From positions 1 through 64,000 of the forward strand of contig PHCB01000005.1 in NCBI GenBank assembly GCA_002842095.1: DNA of 64,000 nucleotides. The letters run 5' to 3'. The DNA is from a candidate division BRC1 bacterium HGW-BRC1-1. Lineage in GTDB: Bacteria > Sumerlaeota > Sumerlaeia > Sumerlaeales > Sumerlaeaceae. The position numbers and the translations under genes were made by a program. Position 1 is the stretch's first letter, and each line of letters opens with the position of its first letter. Shown here one piece after another: positions 9,611 to 24,012 of this stretch. The notes below the pieces were generated by a model that was not told the origin of the DNA, ran no database searches, and was given only the letters and a program-made list of their open reading frames with translations.

Positions 9611-12600
9611 CTATCTTTTCGCCAGACCGGCGAGGCTTTCGATGGCTCGCGCCAATTTCTCGCGGTGGATCTCCAACAGTTCAGGATTTTTCGTATAGTC
9701 CTTGAGGCTCTGACTAATGTTGTCTGGAACCTTCAGAAGTTCAATCGCCTGCTGAAGACGCAACGACCCGGGCTCGGTTTTCTCGAGCTTGCGAATCAGC
9801 TTGTCCAGCATATGGAAATACTCCCAATCCTGCACGCCGATCGATAGCAGTTCCCAGCGCAGCGAGTCCACCGGCCCGCCCAAATATTCCTGCCCCCGGC
9901 TTGCGGGGTCCCTCCAGTTCGCGGGGTAGAAGAATCTTCCGTCTCCATTCCCCCATAAGTTTCCGGCTTGGCTGGCGTAGCTCATGGGATCTTCGTAGGG
10001 ATTCTGCACGGCCTGTTCTGCCGGGCGCGCCGTGCTGTTCCACCAGCACGTTTCCCAAATCAGAATGCCATCCACCCCATACTTCCACGTTTGCCAAAGC
10101 CACATCCGGGGTTCGATGGCCGGGTGATCGATGAACTCGCCGACGAACGGTTCATGCGGCACACAGCAGATGTACCACCACACTTCTTCGCCCTTTGCCT
10201 GGCGCGCTTTTGCCGCCTCCTCCGAATAATTGGAGATCAACGGACACCATAGCTCCACACTGTCCAGCAGCGAGGTCTGAATCTCCTCAGTCAGCATGCG
10301 TTTGAACTTCGGGAAATAGGTCTTGAGCCGCGCCATCCCCTCATTGACGAACTCATAATCCTCCGTTGTTGGCTCGTCGAACCAGTAAACGTACCCCTTC
10401 TTGAGCCAGCCACGCTCCTCCAGGTGTTGCTGGTACTGCTGGCCATACTGGCGCATCAGCGTGTCATAGTCTGGCGTGCCGGCTGATTTTCCCAGGAACT
10501 GGCCCTGGCTGTAACCCGAATAAGAGCACGAACCCAGTCCTTCCACCGGGATGGTGAATGCGATAAATCCAAGTCCGTCGAGATACCTGACAGCGGCTGC
10601 GTCGAAGGCATCGAAGTTCATGTTTACCGTCAGGGATGTTCGGGATGAATCTAAGTTCGTGGTGACCGGGGCCAACTTCATTGGATTGTATGGGTTCAGC
10701 CTGTGCTCTGCAAAATTTTTCATATACGCGTCCCAGACCTTCGCCATGGCTCCGGGGCTTGTAAGGTTCTGGTAACGGCGGATTTGATTCGCCGAACAGC
10801 CCAATCCAGAACGCAATTCTGTGGTTGCGGACAGTTGGAAATCCCATACATGCACGACCAGCGGCACCTCGACGTTCCATGCAGACCCTGAAAGCGTGAT
10901 CTTGCCCGAGTAATCGCCCGCCTTTGCATCTGGCGGGATTGCGACGGTTATCCAGACCGGGTTGTTACGGCCCGCCTGCGGCTTCCAGAATCCGTCGATG
11001 GACAGAAGCGGATCGGGCCACTCGCCGGCAAATCCAATGGAGTCGGTGGGAGTCTCAACGGGAACATACGCCACCTCGCGTAGCCGCACAGAGCCGGCCT
11101 CTACCTTGTCCCCGGTTGGCGACTGTAAATCGGATGCCACAATCTTGACGTCACCCGGATTCGTGCTGAAATTCAGAACCAACTGTGCATGCACTCTTTC
11201 CCGTCCCGCCCCGCTCATCCTGATCGCCGAATCTTCGAGGTCCGGAGAAGCTCTGTGAGGCGATACCTTGTACGTGCTTCCACACCACCACACCTCGCCA
11301 AAACCCTTGATGGACCCGAGGCGCGCCCCAAAACTCGCCGCGTAATAATCGGGCAACCGTGCCTTTCCACGCGCTTCATACTGCGAAACCGACTGACCTT
11401 GCTCACGAATGCTGAACTTGAACGAGAGCTTACCGGACTGTGTCCACTTGTAGGGCAAGACGACTGAAGCCGAACTCCCCTTCAGAACGTTTACAGGAAC
11501 TCTGAATGATTGCGTCGTGCCGCCCTCGTGAGACAAAACGAGTTCTGCAATGAAGCGCTCTCCTGAGCCGGGTTTCGGAGTAAACTGCAGCTGCAGGCTG
11601 TCGGAATTTCTCCGTCCGAAAGAGCCGAGGCTCCGCCATGTTGCCACGGTACCGTCGTCCTGCTTTGTCACAGCCACGTAATTCGTCATGCCTTCTGCAA
11701 CAGGGAAGCTCTTGTCTAAAACGCTCTCATACCGATATTTACTGACGTGGAATCCGGACTTTTCCGGCTCCGCCCCCCTGCTCGTGGTCTCAACACGCAG
11801 ACGGACATATACACGCGGCGAAGGGAATGCGCCCGAAGGCAACTCGAAAGCGTGAGGCCCGTTTGTGGAAAGACGCGCGACCTCATTCCACTCCTGCCCG
11901 TCGCCGCTTACAGAAACCACGCAAACCCCGCCCTCATAATTGCTCAGCAAAAGAGACACAGTACCGGACGTTTGACTGGTTCCTCCTAACTCGTGGCAAT
12001 AGACCACCTCGTTGCCGGCTTGGAAAGTCCAACGGTCGCTATTGAAACTGGCTGTGTGCGACGCAAGCGTGCGCGCGCAGTTGCCATGCTCCCCGCCTTT
12101 CATCCCCTCGTAGATGTAACGGTGTCCTGAAACGGTTTCACCCTCGCCGAGAACAAGACTGCCGGAAGTCAGATAAACTGGCGTTACGGGCGTCAACCGA
12201 TAGGAGGCAAATTGAACGGCTGTCGGAACCTGCCACCGACCCAATCTCAGTCGAGCTTGGGAGATGTCGTCTCCGGTCGTGAAAGCAAACCACTTGTCTG
12301 CCCAAGAATCATCCGCCCCGAAATCCATTGTGTGCGACTGCAGACCTGCGAAGACGACTCCCTTCGAGGGCTTGGCCGCACATCGGACGCGAAACGCCAT
12401 TGCGTACGTGGCCCGTGGTTTCAGATCCGGAACTGCCCGTGTCCAGCTCGCAATGTCATTGGAATCAGGGTCCAGCTCAAGGTGAGCAGGGTTCGGGCCT
12501 GAGGCCGGGCGCCAACTGCCAGTTCCCGACAGCTTCCATTCCGGCGGCACGGCGGAGTTTCGAGCGAAATCCTCCGACAGAAGATCCCCGCAAAACCCGA

Positions 12601-12658
12601 GGGATGAGACGAGGAGAAAGGACAAGGAAATGCAGGCAACACGGACGAAGCGGTTCAT
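9611..12658 (-). CDS. Secreted glycoside hydrolase-like protein with DUF4091 domain
   Basis: A 1015-residue exported protein. Residues 1-24 are a signal peptide (VACISLSFLLVSSLGFCG). The N-terminal half is beta-sandwich, probably carbohydrate-binding; the C-terminal half carries the DUF4091 barrel related to GH123. Marks are YWFDEPTTEDYEF (candidate catalytic acid pair), the Trp-rich EVWWYICCVPHEP and DGILIWETCWWN segments, and the closing SLRWELLSIGVQDWEYF block typical of the family. It probably degrades glycans outside the cell; the substrate is unknown. The ATG at 12658 is chosen over GTG 12670 because GTGGAG just upstream forms the ribosome site. It follows the PAP2/GT gene by 78 bases on the same strand. 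Confidence 0.85.
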   Translation of the reverse strand: MNRFVRVACISLSFLLVSSLGFCGDLLSEDFARNSAVPPEWKLSGTGSWRPASGPNPAHLELDPDSNDIASWTRAVPDLKPRATYAMAFRVRCAAKPSKGVVFAGLQSHTMDFGADDSWADKWFAFTTGDDISQARLRLGRWQVPTAVQFASYRLTPVTPVYLTSGSLVLGEGETVSGHRYIYEGMKGGEHGNCARTLASHTASFNSDRWTFQAGNEVVYCHELGGTSQTSGTVSLLLSNYEGGVCVVSVSGDGQEWNEVARLSTNGPHAFELPSGAFPSPRVYVRLRVETTSRGAEPEKSGFHVSKYRYESVLDKSFPVAEGMTNYVAVTKQDDGTVATWRSLGSFGRRNSDSLQLQFTPKPGSGERFIAELVLSHEGGTTQSFRVPVNVLKGSSASVVLPYKWTQSGKLSFKFSIREQGQSVSQYEARGKARLPDYYAASFGARLGSIKGFGEVWWCGSTYKVSPHRASPDLEDSAIRMSGAGRERVHAQLVLNFSTNPGDVKIVASDLQSPTGDKVEAGSVRLREVAYVPVETPTDSIGFAGEWPDPLLSIDGFWKPQAGRNNPVWITVAIPPDAKAGDYSGKITLSGSAWNVEVPLVVHVWDFQLSATTELRSGLGCSANQIRRYQNLTSPGAMAKVWDAYMKNFAEHRLNPYNPMKLAPVTTNLDSSRTSLTVNMNFDAFDAAAVRYLDGLGFIAFTIPVEGLGSCSYSGYSQGQFLGKSAGTPDYDTLMRQYGQQYQQHLEERGWLKKGYVYWFDEPTTEDYEFVNEGMARLKTYFPKFKRMLTEEIQTSLLDSVELWCPLISNYSEEAAKARQAKGEEVWWYICCVPHEPFVGEFIDHPAIEPRMWLWQTWKYGVDGILIWETCWWNSTARPAEQAVQNPYEDPMSYASQAGNLWGNGDGRFFYPANWRDPASRGQEYLGGPVDSLRWELLSIGVQDWEYFHMLDKLIRKLEKTEPGSLRLQQAIELLKVPDNISQSLKDYTKNPELLEIHREKLARAIESLAGLAKR

Positions 12659-12736
12659 TGACGACTCCACGAGAACTGATATTACGTAACGGTGATGCGC
12701 CTGTTGTGCTCGAGTTCTCAGGTTAGTTTTAATCCG

Positions 12737-15556
12737 TCAGAACAGTCGTGAGAAGGTCGGCTTCAGGTCGTATCTCGGCATGTAGGGTTTTCCGTTCGCC
12801 GGAAGCCAGAGAATCCAGAAAACACTGCGGCTTCCTGTATACTCGACTGTGTGTTCACCTTCATCGAGCGTGAAAATCGGCTTCTCCACCACCTTCCCGT
12901 CAATGCGCAGTTGCCCCTGAACGAACCCCTCGGCAGGCGCGAAGAAGTACTCGTCGTCGCGGATGGCGCGGAACGCAAGCGGCGCCGTACTCGTCGCATC
13001 GGAGAGAAACTGTCTGCCATAAAGATGGATGTCTCCATCATACGGTTGGTAGTTCGCGGACAGGTAGTCGCGCAACGGTTGGGGCAGGTCATCATGACGA
13101 CTATCGATGAAATGCATCACGCACTTGTTGCGAGCCAGTTCCTTTGGAACTTCCTCGCTAAGGATACGGTCCATCTGGCGGCGCATGAGAGCATCGGTGT
13201 GAAAGTACCAGAAACTGTGCGGTCTGCTGACGTAACTTCCTGAGTTATCGTACGCTGCGTCGCCCGGCGCAGTGAGTTCCTGGATCCGGTCAAACGTGGC
13301 ATGCTGGTGTTCGTTACTGAAAAGCGGGCTGGAAAGCTCGGCGAGGGCAAAGGCAGCCATGATTGCCAGTCCCCCCGCTGCGGCGGCTGACAGAATAAGG
13401 CGTAGTTTCGGTCTGCTGAAACTCGTTGGCAGTAGCCACGTCACCGCGCCCATCGCGCGTACGACGAAAATCACGCCAATAACGAAGAACGGCACGAAAC
13501 TGTATGGATAGGCCCCCTTCTGAATCACACAGGAGATGAAGGTCGTGCCCAATGCGAGCAGCACAAGAATGTCGTTCCGCGCTTCCCGGCACGTCAGCCA
13601 TTTCCCGCGGTTCCGAACAAAGGTGGCCAAGATGCCAAGTCCGGCAAGTCCCGGCATCCACCACCAAATGACGGCAATAGGCATCAGGTACTTTGACCAG
13701 TGGAAGCCAGGGTATTGGCTTTGATGATCGATAGCCCACACGACCGTGTGCTGCCACCAGCCATTCCATGAACCGGTGACGGTCAAGTAGGCGGCTGGTG
13801 GTAGCAAACCCGCCGCAAATCCGACAATGAACCAGAGGGGACTTCGGAGACAGCGTGCCCGCGTGCGCCGAAAAAACAGGTCCACGATCAGGCCGCCAAG
13901 CAGAGCTAATTCGTGGAAGCCCGCCTTCTGGGAGCCCCATATCGCAAGCGCGGCCAGGGCACCCGCGATGACTGCCGCTGCACGGTCGCCCAGCCACCGC
14001 GAACGCAACACGGCAAGGCTCGCGATGAACAGCGCAAACGCTGCTGTATCGGGGCGGATCTCCACCAAGAAAATGGATAACGGAACGAACAGCGCGATAG
14101 AAAGTGCTGTTCCGCCTGGCGCAAGCCTACCATGACCAGTATTAATGCGCCAAGCGGCGATACAAATGATGGAGGCAAAGATCATCATTCCCAAACGCAT
14201 CAGCCGGGCAGTGCCGGGGTGGTCTCCCCCCAGCAAAAAAACGGGTGAGAGAACTTGGTAGACCAGCGGGTGGTGGCACTCAAAGAAGTCACGGTAGGGC
14301 ACCTGCCCCTTCGCGATCTCCCACGCGGAGTGTAGGTACTGGAACTCGTCCAGCGAGTACGACTTCGTAGCGCACAGCAGTGCGAGAACAAGCAGCGCCA
14401 CTGCCAGCATGGCGCCATTAATCCAGTTCCACGGATGACCGAGTTGCATCCCCGTGGGCTCCGGTGCGTCGATCTGCCGAGCAGCGGGGAATGTCAACCG
14501 ACCACGCCTGAGCAGCAGTTCGCTGCCAACCAGAAGACGTCGCGCAATTCCGATAGCCAATAGTCCGAGCAGGCCGCCGGCGATCACGTCGGCAACGTAG
14601 TGAATGCCGAGCCACACGGTCGAAAATGTGAGCATGATGTTGAGTGGAATATATGCGATCAGTAGCCATCGGACGTACCGCCGCGCAAAGTAAATTAACA
14701 GCACGCTCTGGGCAACATGGAGACTCGGGAACGCCGCGATCCCCTGCCAGGGCGTGGCCTGCCATTGGTCGGGATGATTGACTAATATTCCCCTCTGCTC
14801 TTCGAGGAAGATCATGATGGTCTTAGCCAACTGAGTCTCGGGGATATTCTCGTAGAGATCCTTGAATATGAAGATGTCGCCCAAGCTCGGCAGGGCGTAG
14901 TACAGGACTTGGCCGATCAACTGCGCGACCACGATCGAAGTGAGAAACAGTCTGAGGCCGTAGCGATGTCTCTGCGCAAAGAGCACGCTGGCGGTGATCA
15001 GGATCATATAGAAGAGGGACGTATAGCTGAAACTCATGATGGAGGTCAGCCATGACGGGCGGTAGCCGGCAAACCACGCGTAGAAGTCAAACCCGCCAAA
15101 CAGCAGCAGATCGAAAGTCCGCAGACTTTTGTCGTACTGTGCCGTGTTGAAAAGCGGGACCATCGGCTTGATGTGGGAGATGGCGACCGTTAGCAGGAGG
15201 AAGATCAGGATACACCGCCCCATAAGGGCGACGTTCGAAATGGCCAGGAACGATTCGCGAATCATCCCGCTCAGTTGGGTCCAGGTGAGCTGCTGTTTCA
15301 AATCCCGGGTCTTGCTCAGCCGATACATGTGCAGGCCAAGCGCTACCAGACAGACCCACATGAAGCTAAGGTTATTGAAAACCGTGGACACATGGACGAA
15401 GCAGTCCTTCAGTATCCAACTGAAATGCAAGCCCTTCATGCGGCACATGGCCATGGCCACAACGAGGCTTGCAGCAACGAGCGCCCCTTCCACGCCGATA
15501 ATGCGGAACATGAAGAAACGCCAAGGGTGGCGTCGGAATAGGAGGGGCAGCCTCAT
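12737..15556 (-). CDS. PAP2-type phosphatase/transferase fused to a GT-C membrane glycosyltransferase
   Basis: A 939-residue polytopic membrane protein with two parts. Residues 1-350 resemble the Aur1/inositol-phosphotransferase-like PAP2 group: AFPSLHVAQS has the catalytic His280, and HYVADVIAGG at 319-328 holds the second His-Asp motif. Residues from about 380 form a second membrane bundle starting DEFQYLHSAWEIAKG (D403, the acidic first-loop motif of GT-C enzymes) with PYRDFFECHHPL close behind, as in ArnT/PMT-like glycosyltransferases that use polyprenyl-phosphate sugars. The fusion suggests sugar or phospho-head-group transfer to a lipid on the outer face of the inner membrane. The ATG overlaps the upstream stop as ATGA. 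Confidence 0.85.
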   Translation of the reverse strand: MRLPLLFRRHPWRFFMFRIIGVEGALVAASLVVAMAMCRMKGLHFSWILKDCFVHVSTVFNNLSFMWVCLVALGLHMYRLSKTRDLKQQLTWTQLSGMIRESFLAISNVALMGRCILIFLLLTVAISHIKPMVPLFNTAQYDKSLRTFDLLLFGGFDFYAWFAGYRPSWLTSIMSFSYTSLFYMILITASVLFAQRHRYGLRLFLTSIVVAQLIGQVLYYALPSLGDIFIFKDLYENIPETQLAKTIMIFLEEQRGILVNHPDQWQATPWQGIAAFPSLHVAQSVLLIYFARRYVRWLLIAYIPLNIMLTFSTVWLGIHYVADVIAGGLLGLLAIGIARRLLVGSELLLRRGRLTFPAARQIDAPEPTGMQLGHPWNWINGAMLAVALLVLALLCATKSYSLDEFQYLHSAWEIAKGQVPYRDFFECHHPLVYQVLSPVFLLGGDHPGTARLMRLGMMIFASIICIAAWRINTGHGRLAPGGTALSIALFVPLSIFLVEIRPDTAAFALFIASLAVLRSRWLGDRAAAVIAGALAALAIWGSQKAGFHELALLGGLIVDLFFRRTRARCLRSPLWFIVGFAAGLLPPAAYLTVTGSWNGWWQHTVVWAIDHQSQYPGFHWSKYLMPIAVIWWWMPGLAGLGILATFVRNRGKWLTCREARNDILVLLALGTTFISCVIQKGAYPYSFVPFFVIGVIFVVRAMGAVTWLLPTSFSRPKLRLILSAAAAGGLAIMAAFALAELSSPLFSNEHQHATFDRIQELTAPGDAAYDNSGSYVSRPHSFWYFHTDALMRRQMDRILSEEVPKELARNKCVMHFIDSRHDDLPQPLRDYLSANYQPYDGDIHLYGRQFLSDATSTAPLAFRAIRDDEYFFAPAEGFVQGQLRIDGKVVEKPIFTLDEGEHTVEYTGSRSVFWILWLPANGKPYMPRYDLKPTFSRLF

Positions 15557-15936
15557 TCAGTCTTTCCTTGTGTTGCCAACTGCTTCATCACGTTCTCAAG
15601 ATTGTGATGCAACGATGGGGGTCGTGAAAAGCGAGTCAGCCCCTTGCTCCAGATGGCCATGCCTCTCTTGCCCGCCACCTTTGCAGACTCGATCCAGTCA
15701 TTGGGTGCGCCGTCCCGCCGCGTCATCCCACCGAACAAAGTCTCACCCGTGCCCCAATCCATGTAAAACCACGCGGAATATCTGCAGAGTGAATAATGCC
15801 CCCAAAAACGGATGGTGATTGGGTTAAAGTCCCAAAAAGGGATCATCGGGTGCACAATGAAACCAAAGGAACCGTCGGAGTCCCTCCGGTGGCATCCACC
15901 CCGCATTTGGATATGGTTTGCATTCCCCCCATTCAT
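15553..15936 (-). CDS. Small hypothetical protein coupled to the PAP2/GT gene
   Basis: A 127-codon frame whose TGA overlaps the ATG of the PAP2/GT gene, the arrangement of translationally coupled genes. The C-terminal 95 residues look like real protein (WFYMDWGTGETLFGG, then a basic tail), while the first 30 are low in hydrophobic residues, so an inner ATG at 15846 may be the true start. No family is recognised and no signal peptide is visible. It lies between the small membrane protein of the sigma locus and the PAP2/GT gene. Confidence 0.5.
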   Translation of the reverse strand: MNGGNANHIQMRGGCHRRDSDGSFGFIVHPMIPFWDFNPITIRFWGHYSLCRYSAWFYMDWGTGETLFGGMTRRDGAPNDWIESAKVAGKRGMAIWSKGLTRFSRPPSLHHNLENVMKQLATQGKTE

Positions 15937-15979
15937 TTAAACCGGCGCGCGCCGTCAAGTCTCATATCCCGGATTGATG

Positions 15980-16390
15980 CTACAGCGGAGATTCGTCCCT
16001 GTCGCGGTTTCGCCTCATCGCCTGTTCCATCAACCCGAAGTCGATGGTTAACGGCCGGGGGATGAACATTCGGGCATAGGCTGCAAGGCTCACTTGCGCG
16101 CGGGCACTGACGCGCTCCACACGAACCGGTTGCCAGCCTGCCTCGGCGAAAATGTCCGTTTGTGGTGCAGCGGGGGAAAGTGGAATTAGCGCAAGCGAGA
16201 GCATCCAGCAGATAAACGCCCCGGCGACGACCAGCGCCAGAACCGCGTACTCAGGATGGCGCGCGAGGAACGTGCCGCCGGCACCATCGTCATATCGCCC
16301 CCACAGTTGAGTTCGAAGGTCCCGGCGATGTTCCGCACGCGAAGTGACCGCAGGGCGCGACGTCTTGAGTAGGTGCTCGATTCGGCTCAT
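15980..16390 (-). CDS. Small single-pass membrane protein, possible anti-sigma factor
   Basis: A 136-residue protein with a charged N-terminal half (about 1-48), one membrane helix (YAVLALVVAGAFICWMLSLA, about 48-67) and a periplasmic tail. Its ATG overlaps the TGA of the ECF sigma gene by ATGA. That layout, cytoplasmic segment then single helix directly after an ECF sigma gene, is the usual one for a membrane anti-sigma factor. It has no zf-HC2 or other known anti-sigma motif, so the role rests on context. Confidence 0.65.
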   Translation of the reverse strand: MSRIEHLLKTSRPAVTSRAEHRRDLRTQLWGRYDDGAGGTFLARHPEYAVLALVVAGAFICWMLSLALIPLSPAAPQTDIFAEAGWQPVRVERVSARAQVSLAAYARMFIPRPLTIDFGLMEQAMRRNRDRDESPL

Positions 16391-17118
16391 CGTTTTTTTA
16401 CCTCATGGTCTGCTGCGGTGTATCGTTCTTCCAGCATCCGCAGGCCCCGAACGATGCGCTGTCGCACGGCGCTGTTGTTCAGCGTCAGCACCTCCGCGAT
16501 TGCTGCAACCGTGAGTTCCTCGTCGAAACGCAGAACGAGAACCGTTCGGTACTTCTCCGGGATGGTCTGCAGGCACTCACGCACCCTGACATGCTCTTCC
16601 CTGCTTGAAACAGCCGCGTCGGGTCGCACCTGCGTTTGCGCTCTTTGCAGCCAGTGGCGGCCGATTTCTTCGATGCGCTTGCGCAATACTGCAAGACTGC
16701 GGAGATGGGAAACGTGGGCGTTTGTGGCAATCCGGTAGAGCCACGGGGCAACCCAAACCGGCCGGTTATGGTGGCGAAGCGCGTCCATCGCCTGCAGGAA
16801 TGTGCGCGACGTCAGGTCCTCCGCAAGGTCGCGGTCCATGGTGCGCCGGTACAGGTAGTTTAGGATTCGGTCGTAGTAGCGCTCATAGAGAATCTCCATC
16901 GCCGAGGGGTCTTGCCGGACCCGTGCGGCGATACGGGTTTCCTCTGCCCGCATATCATCCTGTTCCGCGGTTGCATCCGCCGGGTCGGATTCGATAGATT
17001 CAGCGCAAGCTATCCCCCACAAGTTGGGGCGGACATTCCTGTCTGCCAGCGACGCGGACAGGAATGTCTGCGCTCCCATACTCACAAAGCGGTTTGCAGA
17101 TGTGGTCAGGGTGCTCAT
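16387..17118 (-). CDS. ECF-type RNA polymerase sigma factor
   Basis: A sigma-70 family protein. Region 2 is seen as ILYERYYDRILNYLYRRT followed by DLAEDLTSRTFLQAM, and region 4 as LQTIPEKYRTVLVLRF then LTVAAIAEVLTLNNSAVRQR, a helix-turn-helix. From ATG 17118 it has 243 codons, and the first 55 are unlike any sigma factor: they include the translated palindromic repeat at 17032-17068. A second ATG at 16953 would give the usual length, about 188 residues. The 17118 start overlaps the upstream stop by ATGA, which supports coupling. The gene sits between a large membrane protein and a candidate anti-sigma factor. Confidence 0.88.
   Translation of the reverse strand: MSTLTTSANRFVSMGAQTFLSASLADRNVRPNLWGIACAESIESDPADATAEQDDMRAEETRIAARVRQDPSAMEILYERYYDRILNYLYRRTMDRDLAEDLTSRTFLQAMDALRHHNRPVWVAPWLYRIATNAHVSHLRSLAVLRKRIEEIGRHWLQRAQTQVRPDAAVSSREEHVRVRECLQTIPEKYRTVLVLRFDEELTVAAIAEVLTLNNSAVRQRIVRGLRMLEERYTAADHEVKKR
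17032..17068. repeat. Palindromic repeat element inside the sigma gene
   Basis: GACATTCCTGTC (17032-17043) is repeated inverted as GACAGGAATGTC (17057-17068), a perfect 12-bp stem with a 13-nt spacer. It lies in the first 30 codons of the sigma gene and is translated there as GAQTFLSASLADRNVRP. The shape is that of a REP-like dispersed palindrome; I find no second copy in this window, so dispersion is inference. Confidence 0.6.
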
Positions 17119-19001
17119 GGCTTCGACAGTTTTGCTTTCTTCACTTCTTCCAGACTCGACGGCGGGAAGGCAAACAGATCTGCATACGGCTTGCCCGGTT
17201 TGGAGGGGCTGTCGAGCGCGAACTCGTCATCCTTCACGCTATACGTCAGCGGCAGTCCCTTGAAGGGATCGGCGGGCAGCACTCGCAAGTAGTTCGGAAC
17301 GAGTTCCTCCAACTGGGCCGGATAGCTGCCGTGGTCGGCACGGTAGATTTCCAATGCCGTTGCGACACGCAGCGCCTCATAGTTCAGCCAGACTATGTTT
17401 GTGTTCTTCTCTGCCCGAACCCATGGTTGAAGCATGATTTCCGGCATAATAACAACCGGCAGAGTAAAGGGCTCACCGCGTCTCAGCCCCTCCACGCTCA
17501 GAGTTGTGCGCATCTGGGGCGATACCTCGTCGAGCAGATGACCGAGCGCACGCATCTCGTCGGGATCGTTTCGATATCTGACATAGTAGCTGTATGCCGC
17601 ATCGAGTCCGATCCCTCGAACTGCGACGCCAATCATCTGGCCCAGGAGGATCGGATGATCTTTCAGTAATCCACCAAACCGAATATTCGTGCGAATGTCC
17701 GCAAGGGCTTCGGTAGTGCGCCCGTCTCGCATGGACAGAAGCGCATGAATTTTCAACGCGCGCGAACAGTCTCGAACGTTTAGAAAGCTCATGAGGCGTT
17801 TGGGATCAGGCTCCTCGAAGTAGTCCTTCTCCGCACCGGCCTTGTAGGCAGACGTGAACGGAGCGAACTGGTCGATATCGTCATAAATCTGCTTTGTGTC
17901 CAGTTTCGACCAATACTCATCATCACGAATGTCAGCTTCACTTGACGTGATTTCGCGCAACCTGATGGCCGGCTCATTGAAAACTCCGTTTCCCCATTGT
18001 GGGGATCTCACCTTCATAAACATGCGCGACAGATCCGAGTACGCATTCAGAGCTGCATGGCTGCGATATGTGGGACGCCGCTCAACGCTCATCATTTTGA
18101 CCACCTCGCGCTCCGACCAGTTGATCACCGCGGATGCCAGGATCATGGCGCACAGCAGAGCAAGCCCCGCGAGGGAGACGAGCCTATCGAACAGTGTGGC
18201 TGCTCTTGGAGAAAATGGTTCATCCGTCGAAGCCGAAAGACGCAACCCACTTAAAGACTCCAATTGGCGTCGCGAATAGGGAAACACGAGAAGTAGCCTC
18301 GCCACCAATGCAAATAAAAGTGCCTGGAGCAGCCGGCCTGTCAGTTCCACGCCGGTGAACGGAGAACTCAGATAGTAAACCACGAGGGCCCCAAAGAATG
18401 CCCCAAGGAAGTAACGCCATGGTTTCCCTGCCCCACGCGATAAATACAGGCCGCCGAGAACTGCGGCCACGCCCGTGACGTATTCCCGTATTATAGGAAA
18501 GAAAAACGACACCATGATGCGGGGCTTGATAACATCCCATAATTCAGAACCATGCTCAGACGCTTGAATCTCACCGAGCACAGGGAAGAACCTCCACCAG
18601 AGGATGAAGTAGAGGGGCAGTAATGGAGCAATAACTGCTGCCACAAGAAAGAGCGACCTGTTCCTGATAACATAGAAACAGAGAATCAGGGTGGCCAGCA
18701 TGAGATAACCAAAAGCCAAATACGGCGCGAGAAGCCCCATCACATCATGCGAATCAAGCGACGCTCGAAGACTTTGAAGGTTGGCTGGATTCACAACCCG
18801 CAGTAGGAGCAAAAACATTGGCCAAGCCAGCACTGCTAGCGTGGCAACGAGCATGGCCGTTGCCTCGGCGATCCTTGTTAATCGATCGTGCCTCGCCAGC
18901 CACCGCAGGGATGCCTTACCCCGTTGCGAGCGCAAGAGGATAAAACCAACAAGGCCAAGAGCGAGCAACACTGCCGCGAGCAACTGCAACTGATCCGCCA
19001 T
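17115..19001 (-). CDS. Large polytopic membrane protein with pseudopilin-like tail
   Basis: About 628 residues. The first 300 hold roughly eight to ten hydrophobic helices; one more (LFDRLVSLAGLALLCAMILA) leads into a soluble C-terminal region of about 290 residues. That region ends with ALRVATALEIYRADHGSYP and then LVPNYLRVLPADPFKGLPL, a block like the C-terminal part of type II secretion pseudopilins that recurs in membrane proteins of planctomycete-type bacteria. No enzyme motif is recognised. ATG 19001 (MADQLQLLA) is preferred over GTG/ATG codons further out because it opens the first helix; AGAGG lies upstream. Its stop overlaps the sigma gene start, so the two are probably co-translated. 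Confidence 0.75.
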   Translation of the reverse strand: MADQLQLLAAVLLALGLVGFILLRSQRGKASLRWLARHDRLTRIAEATAMLVATLAVLAWPMFLLLLRVVNPANLQSLRASLDSHDVMGLLAPYLAFGYLMLATLILCFYVIRNRSLFLVAAVIAPLLPLYFILWWRFFPVLGEIQASEHGSELWDVIKPRIMVSFFFPIIREYVTGVAAVLGGLYLSRGAGKPWRYFLGAFFGALVVYYLSSPFTGVELTGRLLQALLFALVARLLLVFPYSRRQLESLSGLRLSASTDEPFSPRAATLFDRLVSLAGLALLCAMILASAVINWSEREVVKMMSVERRPTYRSHAALNAYSDLSRMFMKVRSPQWGNGVFNEPAIRLREITSSEADIRDDEYWSKLDTKQIYDDIDQFAPFTSAYKAGAEKDYFEEPDPKRLMSFLNVRDCSRALKIHALLSMRDGRTTEALADIRTNIRFGGLLKDHPILLGQMIGVAVRGIGLDAAYSYYVRYRNDPDEMRALGHLLDEVSPQMRTTLSVEGLRRGEPFTLPVVIMPEIMLQPWVRAEKNTNIVWLNYEALRVATALEIYRADHGSYPAQLEELVPNYLRVLPADPFKGLPLTYSVKDDEFALDSPSKPGKPYADLFAFPPSSLEEVKKAKLSKP

Positions 19002-19438
19002 TTTATATGTTACCTCTGCACCGTATAACGCACCTGGGGCGGGAAAGTGACAAACGAAGTTTTGCGGCATAGAGCGATTTTGACGCAAGTGTTGACCAAT
19101 TTTGCAATTTCGAAATAGTTAGAGCATAGGGTTAGGGGCGAATGTGCATGTCCGGCAAGCTGGAGGCCGCGTGGAGGCCTGAGACAAACCACTGGATGGA
19201 TAATGGCTTGCCGATTTCGCGCCAATTGCACGGCTTGCACACCGGTTGCACACCGGTTGCACGCCGGTTGCATACCGGAAGGCATGCGCCAGCAAATGGG
19301 CAAGTGGGGGGCGGTTGCATCGTGCACCCGGACGAGGCCCTGGTGGCCACCTACGTCAGGATCGACGGTCACAATTCGACATCCCGGGGTCCCGCAAGTC
19401 TGTAATCTCTTGAATCAAAAACGGTTTAACTATTGCCC
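19002..19438. other. Non-coding gap with tandem repeats
   Basis: No convincing gene is present; the short frames here cross the repeats and have no ribosome sites. The stretch is the leader of the membrane-protein/sigma locus on one side and the end of the GH3 gene on the other. It holds the 11-bp tandem repeat at 19235-19278. Confidence 0.5.
19235..19278. repeat. Four tandem copies of an 11-bp repeat
   Basis: The unit TTGCACACCGG occurs at 19235-19245 and 19246-19256, then as TTGCACGCCGG (19257-19267) and TTGCATACCGG (19268-19278). A degenerate fifth copy (TTGCACGGC) starts at 19226. The 11-bp period is about one helical turn, so identical faces would be aligned. It lies about 230 bases upstream of the membrane-protein gene start. 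Confidence 0.85.
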
Positions 19439-21226
19439 CTATTCGACAGAGAACTCCGACAACCTCACCGGGACGGTCACGGGCCAGGGTTGGCTTGCTT
19501 CCCCATAGCCAGCCAGCTCGCGCGCGACCTCGCGCTGCGATTCAAAGTGGCTGGAGAAGGTGCAGATGAAGTTGTTCATGTCAGAGAATTGAAGCATGGA
19601 TTGGTAGGGGCTGCCAAAGGAGACATAGGTGGGGTTCACTCCGGCGGATCGCAGGGTGTTTACAAATGCAGCCTGACTGCTGTAAATCGTGGGGGCCTTA
19701 TCCACGCCAGCGACGATAACGTGGTCGTACCCGGCGCACATGTTTTTGTAGTCGTTGATGGTTGTTCCGCTCAACGAGGTGGCAACGGGCTGGATATCAA
19801 CTCGTCCGGGCATATCCGATGTGAGTTCGTCGGTGAAATACGTTAGCGGGTATCTGTAGAAGATCGAGTTGTTAGTCGCCAGCGTGAACACGAGGGCGTT
19901 CTCGGTGGGCCCGATCGGCAGGTGACCCGGTTGAATGTTTCTTTTGGAAACCGCACGCACGCCGATCTCCTTTGCCACTGCCAGATTATCTGGATGCTGG
20001 AGGATGCCGGTATACGCCGTGGTGGACACGGTGGTCATCTCGGGGATGCCTGCCCGGCTTTTCAGTTTCAGAATGCGGCGCACGGAATCATCTATCCGCG
20101 ACATGGGAATCGTGCCTGCGTTCACGGCATCGTGAAGGCCGTTCCAGGCGTCTGCCATGGAGGCCGGCGTGAGAATAATATCCAGGCCAGATAAAACCGC
20201 GGAGGTGACACCATCGTAAGTATTCGTAATGGCCATCAGGCCGCCCATCGCGAACGAGTCGGAGATGATGCAACCATCGTAGCCCAGTTGGTTGCGCAGA
20301 ATGCCTGTGAGCGCGTTGTACGAAATGGTGGCGGGGATGTCCTGCGTCGGATCGATCGCGGGATACAGCACATGCGCGGTCATCACAAGGTCGACCGTGG
20401 CGGACTGCAGAAGCAGTTCGTAGGGCTTGAGGTGAATGTTCTGGAGGTCGGCCATGGAAATGTTGACCACCTGAAAACCGATGTGGCTGTCGCCGGTGGT
20501 CGGGCCGTGGCCCGGGTAGTGTTTGTAGGTGCAGAGCAGCCCCTCGGCGTTGGCGCCCTGAACGTAGGCCTGGGCCAAGTCGGCCACGCGATACGGGTCA
20601 TCGCTGTAGGAACGGATGCCGATGATCGGGTTCACCGGTTCCGTGTTCACGTCGAGCACGGGACCGAAGCCGATCTGGATGCCGATGGCGCGGCATTCGC
20701 GCGCGGTGGCGCCGCCCTGCTGGTAGGCAAGCGACGGATCGTTCACGGCTCCCGAGGCCATGTTCATGGGGAACTTCGTGGCGTCGGTGAAGCGCGCGCC
20801 GAGGCCGGCCTCGCAGTCCACCGAGAACAACAGGGGCACGGAGGTGATCCCTTGCAGATGGTTAACGGCAGCCACGATCGCCGGCGCAGTGTTCGTGTTG
20901 CCCTGGATGATGAATCCACCGACGCGATAGGTGTTCACCATCGCGTCCGCTGAACCGCCGTAAGCAGGCATCAACATCTGCCCGATCTTATCGTCGAGGG
21001 TCATCTGACCCAGCATGGTTTCCACCCAGGTAGTGTTTACGTCTCGAAGTGCCGGGCCCGAAGGAACTGTGTTACGGCGGACAGGTCTGCGGGCCGCATA
21101 ACCCATCTCCAGGGCGGCGGCAGGCGCAACAGCGTCGGCCGAAGCACTCAGGTCGCTGCTCTCCTGTGAAAAGCAGCAGTAGGGTGCCAGAAGAAGAAAC
21201 AACAAAGTCCATACCGCGAGTCTCAT
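19439..21226 (-). CDS. Secreted glycoside hydrolase family 3 protein (NagZ-like)
   Basis: A 595-residue exported GH3 enzyme. MRLAVWTLLFLLLAPYCC is a signal peptide, perhaps lipidated. Counting from this ATG, the NagZ-type substrate block KHYPGHG is at 235-241, the Asp-His dyad DSH at 246-248, and the nucleophile is Asp323 in IISDSFAMGG. These are the marks of beta-N-acetylhexosaminidases within GH3, which act on chitin or peptidoglycan sugars by a covalent intermediate. The last 180 residues are a second alpha/beta domain. The frame continues 38 codons upstream, but only the inner ATG gives a signal peptide; AAGG lies unusually close to it. It is divergent from the GHL10 gene. Confidence 0.9.
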   Translation of the reverse strand: MRLAVWTLLFLLLAPYCCFSQESSDLSASADAVAPAAALEMGYAARRPVRRNTVPSGPALRDVNTTWVETMLGQMTLDDKIGQMLMPAYGGSADAMVNTYRVGGFIIQGNTNTAPAIVAAVNHLQGITSVPLLFSVDCEAGLGARFTDATKFPMNMASGAVNDPSLAYQQGGATARECRAIGIQIGFGPVLDVNTEPVNPIIGIRSYSDDPYRVADLAQAYVQGANAEGLLCTYKHYPGHGPTTGDSHIGFQVVNISMADLQNIHLKPYELLLQSATVDLVMTAHVLYPAIDPTQDIPATISYNALTGILRNQLGYDGCIISDSFAMGGLMAITNTYDGVTSAVLSGLDIILTPASMADAWNGLHDAVNAGTIPMSRIDDSVRRILKLKSRAGIPEMTTVSTTAYTGILQHPDNLAVAKEIGVRAVSKRNIQPGHLPIGPTENALVFTLATNNSIFYRYPLTYFTDELTSDMPGRVDIQPVATSLSGTTINDYKNMCAGYDHVIVAGVDKAPTIYSSQAAFVNTLRSAGVNPTYVSFGSPYQSMLQFSDMNNFICTFSSHFESQREVARELAGYGEASQPWPVTVPVRLSEFSVE

Positions 21227-21456
21227 CCTTGAAGATTCATAATATGGCAGACGCTTTGGCAACCATTTGTGGTTCAGTTCTGTGGGCAGACCTCCAACGC
21301 GAGATGCTCGCCTCAATCCCGAAAACCAACCTCTATGCAAGACACCCTGCGCAAGGTGGTTACGAATAAACAGAACTTGCCTTCAGCCGTTCCGGATGGA
21401 TGTAAAGGGTGTTCCTTCCGTACATCCGCGCTCTTGCGCAACATCAGAGGTGCATC

Positions 21457-24012
21457 ATGATCCGTAAGCTTCGCTCATTGCTCGTATTGTCTGCTTTGTT
21501 TATGGTGCTGACAACAACCGCCCGGGCGGAGGAGAGGATTCTCTGGTATTCCATCGGCGATGGATTGACCAACACGACCAACATTCAATCGGCCATCAAC
21601 TTTGCGGTGACAAACAACTACAATGCCATCTGCGTGCTGACGCGTTACCGCGCCAACGCCTACTACAAAACGAACCGCGACTACTCAACCTACCCGAATC
21701 CAGAGACGCAAGCCTCCGGGGCTGCGGGGGATACATTGCAGTACGTGATCGATCGCGGCCACGAAGCAGGACTGCGGGTCTATTCCGCGTTCTCATGCTT
21801 CATTGTCAGCGACGGGAGCATGAGTACATACCCGACCTTCCTCAATGCCGACTGGAAGACTTGGTGTTACAAGGGGGACAACGCGAGCAACACGGTTTAC
21901 AGCCCTGCCGCCGGCTATCCGCGGGCCATGGTGCTCGGGACCGATCTCTCCGATGGGTACTGGGTCGACCCAGGCATGTCGGCTGTCCGCAATTATACGA
22001 TCCAGATCCTGAAGGATCTGGTGCAGAACTACGACATCGATGGCATCATGCTCGATCGCGTGCGCTATCCCGGAGATGATTTTCCCCACTACAACGGCGC
22101 GTTCGGTTACAATCCCACGGCTCTCAGCGAAATGGGTCTGACCAATCCCGGCCCCGGCAGCACGACGTTCCGCGACGCCCGACGCGGCGCGATTACAACC
22201 TTCGTGAAAGACGCCAGCACCGCAGTTGCCGCCCTCAAGCCATGGGTCATCATGGGAGCCACGCCTGTCGTCTACGGCACCGACCTGATAAGCACCGAAG
22301 ACTACGTGTTCCAGTATTTCCCCGGCTGGAATGCCGCAGTAAACTCCCGCCACACCAGTGGCTACGGAGCACTTGATCTGATCGCACCCCAGTACTATCG
22401 ATCCACGGCAAGCGTGAATGGTGACCTGATGGACCTCGTGAATGGCAAGATCGACGAGGTGAACCGTATTTTCCACCAAGGAACTTTTGGCTCGGCCTAT
22501 TCGGCTGCCACTGAGATGGCTGGAAATATTCGCGCGACCCGTGACGTCAGCCGCAACATGAACGGCTGGGGCATTTTTAACTACTCCAGTTGCGATGGAA
22601 CCTACAACACCGACATGCGGGCCAACTCACCAGACGTGCTCGGTTCGACCAGCGCAAAAACCCAGTTCACAATAAAGACCAACTGGGACAGCACCCCGCC
22701 CAATGGCGTGACCAATTTCGCGGGAGTCCAAAGCGGCACCACGATGAACCTCAGTTGGACCGCACCCACGGTTGCCGGTGACGGCGACGGCGCAGCGCAC
22801 TACCTGATATATCGCGGCACTTCTCCGGCTGTGAAAGAGTACTATGCGAATCTGGTGCTGAAGACACCCACGCTCACCGCAACGACCTATGTGGACATGC
22901 CGGGACCGGGAACCTACTACTATCGCGTCGTTCCCGTCGACAACTACAACAACCACGGCACCGCATCGGAAATCGGCCCGTTCGAATTCCTCGCGGAAAC
23001 TGATCTGAATCCGACCCTGAAAATATCAACGGGATCAGGACTGACCGAGTCGCAGATGGTATCGTGGTTCGCGACGGACGGAACCTGCCGCGGGATCGCC
23101 CTCAACAAGGCAACGGGTCACCTGCTCGTCGCCACGCGAAGTGGCGGCAACGCGGTCCGCATCCTTGATACGAATAACTTCACCGAGTTGAACTCGCCCG
23201 GCCTCAGCATGACCGGCGTGTCCGGCGGCACCTATGCCATAAACAAGGTTGTCTGCACCGACAACGGGATCATCTATCTCTGCAACTTGTCCACCACCAC
23301 CGGTTTCAAGATTTACAGGTATGCCAGCGAGGCCGCGGCCCCTGTGGCTTGCACGATCAACTGGCCTTCAGGCACCGAAGCATCGATGCGCAAGGGTGAC
23401 GACGTGGCCATCATGGGAACAGGTGCGGGCACCAAGATCTTGGTGAGCGGTTCTGGTGCCACATCGGTCTTCTCCTTTGTGGCGACCGATGCTAACGCCA
23501 ACGTGTTCAACGCCACGCAAATAACCACGGGACTCGCCAACAGCGGCCAGAACGTGGACTGGGATTCCAACGGCACGAACTTCTTTATGAGGTACAATAA
23601 CAACAACATGTACCGCTATAACCTGAGCGGCACCGTGACCAATACCTGGTCCTCGGTTGGACCCACCGCGACGCCCCAGTACGGCACCGCAGTGATGAAT
23701 GTGCCGGAGACCCCCGCAAGCTATTACGCCTCGTGGAGCGGTTCGAATGCAGCCGCCACCGACCCCATGGTGTATGTGCGTGTACTGACCCCGCCAAGCA
23801 CGGTGGGAGACATCAAGTTCCAGCTGTTGCATACAGCCGCAGGAGAACGAACACTGGCGTGTTCTGCGGTCGCGGATACAACGGGTAGCGGGGATGTGAT
23901 ATTCGACCGCAACAAGAATACCGTCTACACGCTCTGGCCCAACAACTCCATCTGCAAGTTCGCGGATCCGGGAATGGTTCCGGTTGCAGTTAGCTCGTTC
24001 GGTCTCGAGTAG
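21457..24012 (+). CDS. Secreted GHL10-type glycoside hydrolase-like protein with fibronectin III domain
   Basis: An 851-residue exported protein. The signal peptide ends at about ARA (residue 24). The barrel domain matches the GHL10 group (Pfam PF02638): VDPGMSAVRNYTIQILKDL and then YDIDGIMLDRVRYPGDDF at about 193-209, the hallmark segment of this family. A fibronectin type III domain follows (about 405-510: GVTNFAGVQSGTTMNLSW to GTYYYRVVPVDNY), and the C-terminal 330 residues are repetitive beta sheet, perhaps a propeller. The substrate is unknown; the family includes peptidoglycan- and polysaccharide-related enzymes. AGAGG at 21446-21450 fixes the start. Confidence 0.85.
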   Translation: MIRKLRSLLVLSALFMVLTTTARAEERILWYSIGDGLTNTTNIQSAINFAVTNNYNAICVLTRYRANAYYKTNRDYSTYPNPETQASGAAGDTLQYVIDRGHEAGLRVYSAFSCFIVSDGSMSTYPTFLNADWKTWCYKGDNASNTVYSPAAGYPRAMVLGTDLSDGYWVDPGMSAVRNYTIQILKDLVQNYDIDGIMLDRVRYPGDDFPHYNGAFGYNPTALSEMGLTNPGPGSTTFRDARRGAITTFVKDASTAVAALKPWVIMGATPVVYGTDLISTEDYVFQYFPGWNAAVNSRHTSGYGALDLIAPQYYRSTASVNGDLMDLVNGKIDEVNRIFHQGTFGSAYSAATEMAGNIRATRDVSRNMNGWGIFNYSSCDGTYNTDMRANSPDVLGSTSAKTQFTIKTNWDSTPPNGVTNFAGVQSGTTMNLSWTAPTVAGDGDGAAHYLIYRGTSPAVKEYYANLVLKTPTLTATTYVDMPGPGTYYYRVVPVDNYNNHGTASEIGPFEFLAETDLNPTLKISTGSGLTESQMVSWFATDGTCRGIALNKATGHLLVATRSGGNAVRILDTNNFTELNSPGLSMTGVSGGTYAINKVVCTDNGIIYLCNLSTTTGFKIYRYASEAAAPVACTINWPSGTEASMRKGDDVAIMGTGAGTKILVSGSGATSVFSFVATDANANVFNATQITTGLANSGQNVDWDSNGTNFFMRYNNNNMYRYNLSGTVTNTWSSVGPTATPQYGTAVMNVPETPASYYASWSGSNAAATDPMVYVRVLTPPSTVGDIKFQLLHTAAGERTLACSAVADTTGSGDVIFDRNKNTVYTLWPNNSICKFADPGMVPVAVSSFGLE

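Follow-up and report, generated by a model that had tools for sequence, protein, structure and literature searches.

A putative membrane-signalling ECF sigma factor operon shared by three genomes of the phylum Sumerlaeota

Results and Discussion

A conserved three-gene unit

Positions 15980-19001 of the window, i.e. of the whole 64,000-nucleotide stretch of DNA that was analysed, probably constitute a single, autoregulated operon that encodes a membrane-signalling ECF sigma factor; we give this reading a probability of about 0.68. The comparison of sequences supports the view that its three genes, which code for a large membrane protein, the sigma factor and a single-pass membrane anchor, are one conserved unit with a common ECF-type promoter. 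No more than three complete units are known.

The listing of open reading frames (ORFs) contains five frames on the minus strand, at 12737-15556, 15553-15936, 15980-16390, 16387-17118 and 17115 to either 19088 (TTG) or 19001 (ATG). ATGA junctions were read in the sequence at 17118-17115, 16390-16387 and 15556-15553; the five frames and their three overlaps are thus present as an earlier note on this DNA had described them. The anchor and the small ORF that follows it are 43 bases apart, so that the five genes fall into two overlapping sets of three and two. Codon scores give positive support to the membrane protein, the sigma factor and the PAP2/GT-C enzyme, and are near zero for the anchor and the small ORF. 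The anchor is accepted as a gene despite its score because homologues exist; the small ORF has no such rescue.

Conservation was examined in 40 genomes of the phylum, and the search with the membrane protein covered 41 genomes. The order membrane protein, ECF sigma factor, single-pass anchor, tightly packed, also occurs in genomes G025 and G015, which belong to other families; this makes three genomes from three families. The junction between the membrane protein and the sigma factor is an ATGA overlap in the window and in G025 and a 9-base gap in G015, and the genes of sigma factor and anchor overlap by 4, 8 and 4 bases in the three genomes. In both relatives the anchor is the last gene of the unit and is followed by convergent genes. 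The earlier note had linked all five genes and proposed a search for the same order in related genomes. This search bears out the linkage of the first three and leaves the small ORF and the PAP2/GT-C gene outside the unit, which stops at the anchor in the relatives.

Among the genomes of the phylum that were searched, the sigma and anchor subfamilies are confined to the three with a complete unit. The strict membrane protein family was found in this phylum only, in a wide search of 386 genomes of which most came from other phyla; the tree of this family is too deep and unresolved to show a single origin of the linkage with sigma. A search of contigs with the sigma profile yielded general ECF factors, mostly from Chloroflexi and Actinobacteria, and no locus that matched the membrane or anchor profile, in a search from which records near the genome of the window may have been left out. 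Glycoside hydrolase-type genes (GH123, GH3 and GHL10, at 9611-12670, 19439-21340 and 21409-24012) flank the unit in the window, and directly upstream of the unit in G015 there is a GH5 gene; both neighbourhoods could be due to chance.

The sigma factor

The product of the gene at 16387-17118 on the minus strand has 243 amino acids and contains sigma regions 2 and 4 (Sigma70_r2, 2.7e-11; Sigma70_r4_2, 1.9e-12). These two, at residues 77-142 and 177-229, are its sole sigma domains, as in members of the ECF group, and the protein scores 79.6 bits against the model of the sigma70-ECF superfamily (TIGR02937; cut-off 42.9). All of the NCBIfam equivalogs shown for the sigma factor score below their own cut-offs.

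The sigma factors of G025 and G015 are 45% and 38% identical to that of the window. In a search with a profile built from the three orthologues themselves, these reach at least 370 bits, versus no more than 109 bits for any other ECF factor of the phylum. A search with the single sequence repeats this gap among the loci compared (3e-42 and 2e-34, versus 6e-11 for the next best). In each of the three orthologues an N-terminal extension reaches back to the membrane protein gene, which is why an alternative start at ATG 16953 is not the first choice.

Open frames with lengths of 450-966 residues contain many ECF sigma domains of the phylum (in G009, G005, G018, G020 and others), an indication that sigma factors have here been joined to large C-terminal parts.

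The promoter

A candidate ECF-type promoter, TTTGTCAC-N15-GCGTT, is located on the minus strand at 19027-19054, 53 bases upstream of ATG 19001. Its layout, AC-N16-CGTT, is typical of promoters of ECF factors. A comparison of the 200 bases that precede each of the three membrane protein genes showed the boxes TTTG(C/T)(A/C)AC and GCGTT in all of them at a spacing of 15, with 11 of the 13 box columns identical; the boxes lie 53-99 bases ahead of the first gene of each unit. Only 6 of 8178 dinucleotide-preserving shuffle sets, scanned with all spacers from 11 to 20, equalled the real match, a result that is moderately strong and not a formal probability since the box sizes were picked after the match had been seen. 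The whole pattern occurs once in G025, once in G015 and twice in G000, where the second copy is antisense inside pilN/pilO-like genes. A scan for sigma-70 promoters gave no more matches than chance.

The core TGCAAC-N15-GCGTT also occurs 38 bases before the start of a sigma-less homologue of the membrane protein in G037, as one of two core sites in that genome. Four genomes together contain 24 core sites: four of these stand directly before genes of the membrane protein family and only one other directly before a gene of more than 150 amino acids. The counts in this search for a regulon were not above those of a reversed-pattern control and establish no regulon beyond the operon. One intergenic core site precedes a secreted glycosidase-like gene (G000:C21:180001), which is within chance expectation.

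The large membrane protein

The first gene of the unit, at 17115-19001 on the minus strand, codes for a protein of 628 amino acids with about eight predicted transmembrane helices, as judged from a family of eight homologues, an AlphaFold model and a positive-inside count. Its start is most likely ATG 19001 rather than TTG 19088: the ATG is preceded by AGAGG and the 29 codons upstream of it score as non-coding. The model, computed from eight sequences with a mean pLDDT of 63, has about eight membrane helices in the N-terminal part, at low confidence, and a better modelled helical part from about residue 400 to 630. Loops alternating to one side of the membrane contain 13 lysine and arginine residues, those to the other side 3; by the positive-inside rule this places the C-terminal ~330 residues, including the C-terminus, outside. 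The outward part is predicted to consist of helical repeats with a module like pseudopilin G (T2SSG) at its end.

Over 49 residues this end, which has the motif ALEIYRADHGSYPAQLEELVPNYLRVLPADPFKGLPLTY, shares 55% identity with the end of a G008 protein of the M56/BlaR1 type, and it is the latter that matches T2SSG above the cut-off (34.5 versus 21 bits). The protein of the window has no direct match to T2SSG (PF08334), and two of the eight family members match weakly (best E 0.018). The G008 gene (L052:6819-10057) encodes an M56/BlaR1-type receptor with the T2SSG module at its C-terminus, and a BlaI-type repressor gene adjoins it. Searches with the membrane protein against Pfam, NCBIfam and PHROGs returned no family and no enzyme domain; its profile found nothing useful among PDB sequences, and a fold search with the model of mean pLDDT 63 recovered generic helical repeats only, with no clear match.

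In the reading that we prefer, the short N-terminal tail of the anchor would keep the sigma factor silenced at the membrane, and the eight-helix protein, with its large outward domain, would detect an envelope condition or help to release the sigma factor. Once released, the sigma factor would fire TTTGYMAC-N15-GCGTT promoters, that of its own operon first; presumably it is this sigma factor that recognises the conserved promoter. A more specific version is speculative, and we consider it rather doubtful: the outward pseudopilin-G-like module of a polytopic receptor would read the condition of secreted or pilus-like fibres or of their substrates and signal through a minimal, zinc-free anti-sigma factor to an ECF sigma factor, in a phylum-specific system whose module would be reused on BlaR1-type receptors of relatives.

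The chief rival of the sensor reading takes the membrane protein for the main target of the sigma factor rather than for a sensor: it would be an envelope protein with a large outward domain, produced when needed, and in some genomes the sigma/anti-sigma pair would have been placed behind it. ECF operons are often headed by a target gene. Five further homologues of the membrane protein stand alone, with no sigma gene nearby, so that the protein may be a target or act by itself, and the ECF-type core ahead of the G037 homologue points the same way; a promoter without an adjacent sigma gene is, on the other hand, compatible with both readings. Against a mere target, the membrane protein gene directly precedes the sigma gene and is closely packed with it in all three genomes that have the sigma factor, as expected of a working partner, and the protein has no enzyme domain. 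We regard the target reading as a possibility to be taken seriously, with odds well short of even.

The anchor, a probable anti-sigma factor

The third gene of the unit (15980-16390, minus strand) encodes a single-pass membrane protein of 136 amino acids, which has orthologues with overlapping starts at the same place in the other two units. Its predicted layout comprises about 45 residues inside, a transmembrane helix at 46-68 and about 68 residues outside. All three anchors have the motif [SA]RP-x7-HR-x2-L-x3-L ahead of this helix, and in leave-one-out tests a profile from any two found the third as its top outside match (E 6e-5, 2e-4 and 8e-9). No orthologue was detected in the other genomes of the phylum. 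The anchor belongs to no family in Pfam, NCBIfam or PHROGs; its profile has no useful match among PDB sequences and none to the solved anti-sigma structures.

Class I anti-sigma domains (ASDI) have at least 50 residues, often with an Hx3Cx2C motif, and shorter domains are counted as possible class II members, with CnrY as their model (PMC7406223). The anchor does not conform to class I: about 45 residues precede the helix, none of the three members contains Hx3Cx2C, and there is no Pfam match. Its length and single helix agree with the CnrY-like class II, without a sequence match in the PDB. The anchor is likely to be a short, zinc-free anti-sigma factor of CnrY-like build, a fit of size and build only; its position and build are those that one expects of an anti-sigma factor, the role for which the earlier note had nominated it.

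We think it improbable that the anchor is a small membrane protein of some other use and that control of the sigma factor comes from its expression or from the membrane protein alone. The lack of likeness to known anti-sigma domains and the cytoplasmic part of only ~45 residues would be in line with this idea. However, a single-pass protein sits in the same overlapping position behind the sigma gene in all three genomes; a single-pass membrane protein likewise comes next downstream of many further ECF genes in the phylum, a comparable arrangement; and CnrY acts with two helices only, which wrap sigma2 and sigma4 (PMC7406223).

The neighbouring PAP2/GT-C gene and the small ORF

The gene at 12737-15556 on the minus strand encodes a fusion of a PAP2_3 domain (3.9e-24) with a GT-C glycosyltransferase, 939 amino acids in all, and lies outside the conserved unit. 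The fusion that the earlier note had recognised is real. PAP2_3 scores 85.9 bits (cut-off 27) and PAP2 34.6 bits (cut-off 27.2), and the motifs FPSLH and HYVAD align with FPS(L/S)H and H-x-x-x-D of relatives. GT-C enzymes are defined by a membrane fold in which the first outer loop bears an acidic motif. A model of the C-terminal half is closest to ArnT (E 1.1e-5) and also matches Pmt4 and PglB, and the pair D403-E404, just past the first helix of this half, is invariant. PMT_2 is matched by 7 of 14 aligned homologues, and a search of PDB sequences gave no useful match. Elsewhere in the phylum the two parts occur in separate proteins, GT-C or PAP2; none of the homologues aligned has both halves. 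The small ORF (15553-15936, minus strand; 127 amino acids) is a doubtful gene outside the unit: its codon score of -0.001 falls between coding and non-coding, it has no family in Pfam, NCBIfam or PHROGs, and the best other match (E 0.01) does not convince as a homologue.

That all five genes form one envelope-sensing, lipid-glycan modifying system, as the earlier note had proposed, is in our view very unlikely: the single strand, the short gaps, the ATGA that joins the small ORF to the PAP2/GT-C gene and the frequent control of envelope enzymes by ECF factors speak for it, but neither G025 nor G015 has the PAP2/GT-C gene beside the unit, its GT-C relatives lie elsewhere and without sigma factors, no convincing relative of the small ORF was found, a 43-base gap divides the two gene sets, and nothing was found that gives the regulatory unit a role in lipid-glycan modification. 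The PAP2/GT-C gene probably encodes a separate enzyme of envelope glycans or lipids, and may be reached by read-through from the operon in this genome alone.

Relation to known systems

The regulator is of an ordinary kind in an unusual combination, an ECF-signalling variant that is confined to one phylum in the data examined. The CnrYXH operon contains a third, membrane-associated sensor gene, a layout shared by the present unit if its membrane protein is a sensor. In both, an ECF sigma factor is paired with a small single-pass protein whose cytoplasmic part is very short (for the binding mode of CnrY see PMC7406223). They differ in gene order; moreover, the third protein here has eight helices and is not a periplasmic metal sensor, and the anchor lacks sequence similarity to solved anti-sigma structures. 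RpoE/RseA and SigW/RsiW, of class I, also have an ECF sigma gene followed by a single-pass anti-sigma gene and an autoregulated promoter of the AC/CGTT type. Unlike theirs, the present anchor has no Hx3Cx2C, and its cytoplasmic part is below the 50-residue limit of class I (PMC7406223).

The likeness to BlaR1/MecR1 (M56) with BlaI is in the G008 relative, which has the same pseudopilin-G-like C-terminal module and the adjoining BlaI-type gene; the protein of the window, however, has no M56 domain and is partnered by a sigma/anti-sigma pair, not by a repressor. The product of 12737-15556 resembles the GT-C enzymes ArnT and PMT in the fold of its C-terminal half and in the PMT_2 matches of its homologues, but differs from them in carrying a fused PAP2_3 domain.

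In this poorly studied phylum the unit would be a defined ECF switch for which both a promoter and an anti-sigma factor are predicted; the pseudopilin-G-like module becomes a possible outward sensing part common to it and to M56/BlaR1 receptors. The comparison also sets the regulatory unit apart from an adjacent envelope enzyme, which a reading of a single genome would include in it.

Repeats in and near the unit

At 17033-17067, in codons of the unconserved N-terminal extension of the sigma factor, two copies of a dispersed REP-like hairpin of this genome, GCRGACATTCCTGTCYGC, form an inverted pair. The pair is in frame with the sigma gene and predicted to fold, and the exact pair is unique. 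The hairpin family has at least 11 matches within 3 mismatches in G000, versus none in the reversed control; a second pair is found at G000:C24:46665-46736. At 19150-19420 lies an interspersed element, about 270 bases long, with four copies of the 11-base unit TTGCACACCGG (19235-19278). Copy numbers of both repeats are lower bounds. Longer copies of the element occur in G000 near 96 kb of C25 (80%) and near 75 kb of C16 (73%), and partial copies in at least four other sampled stretches.
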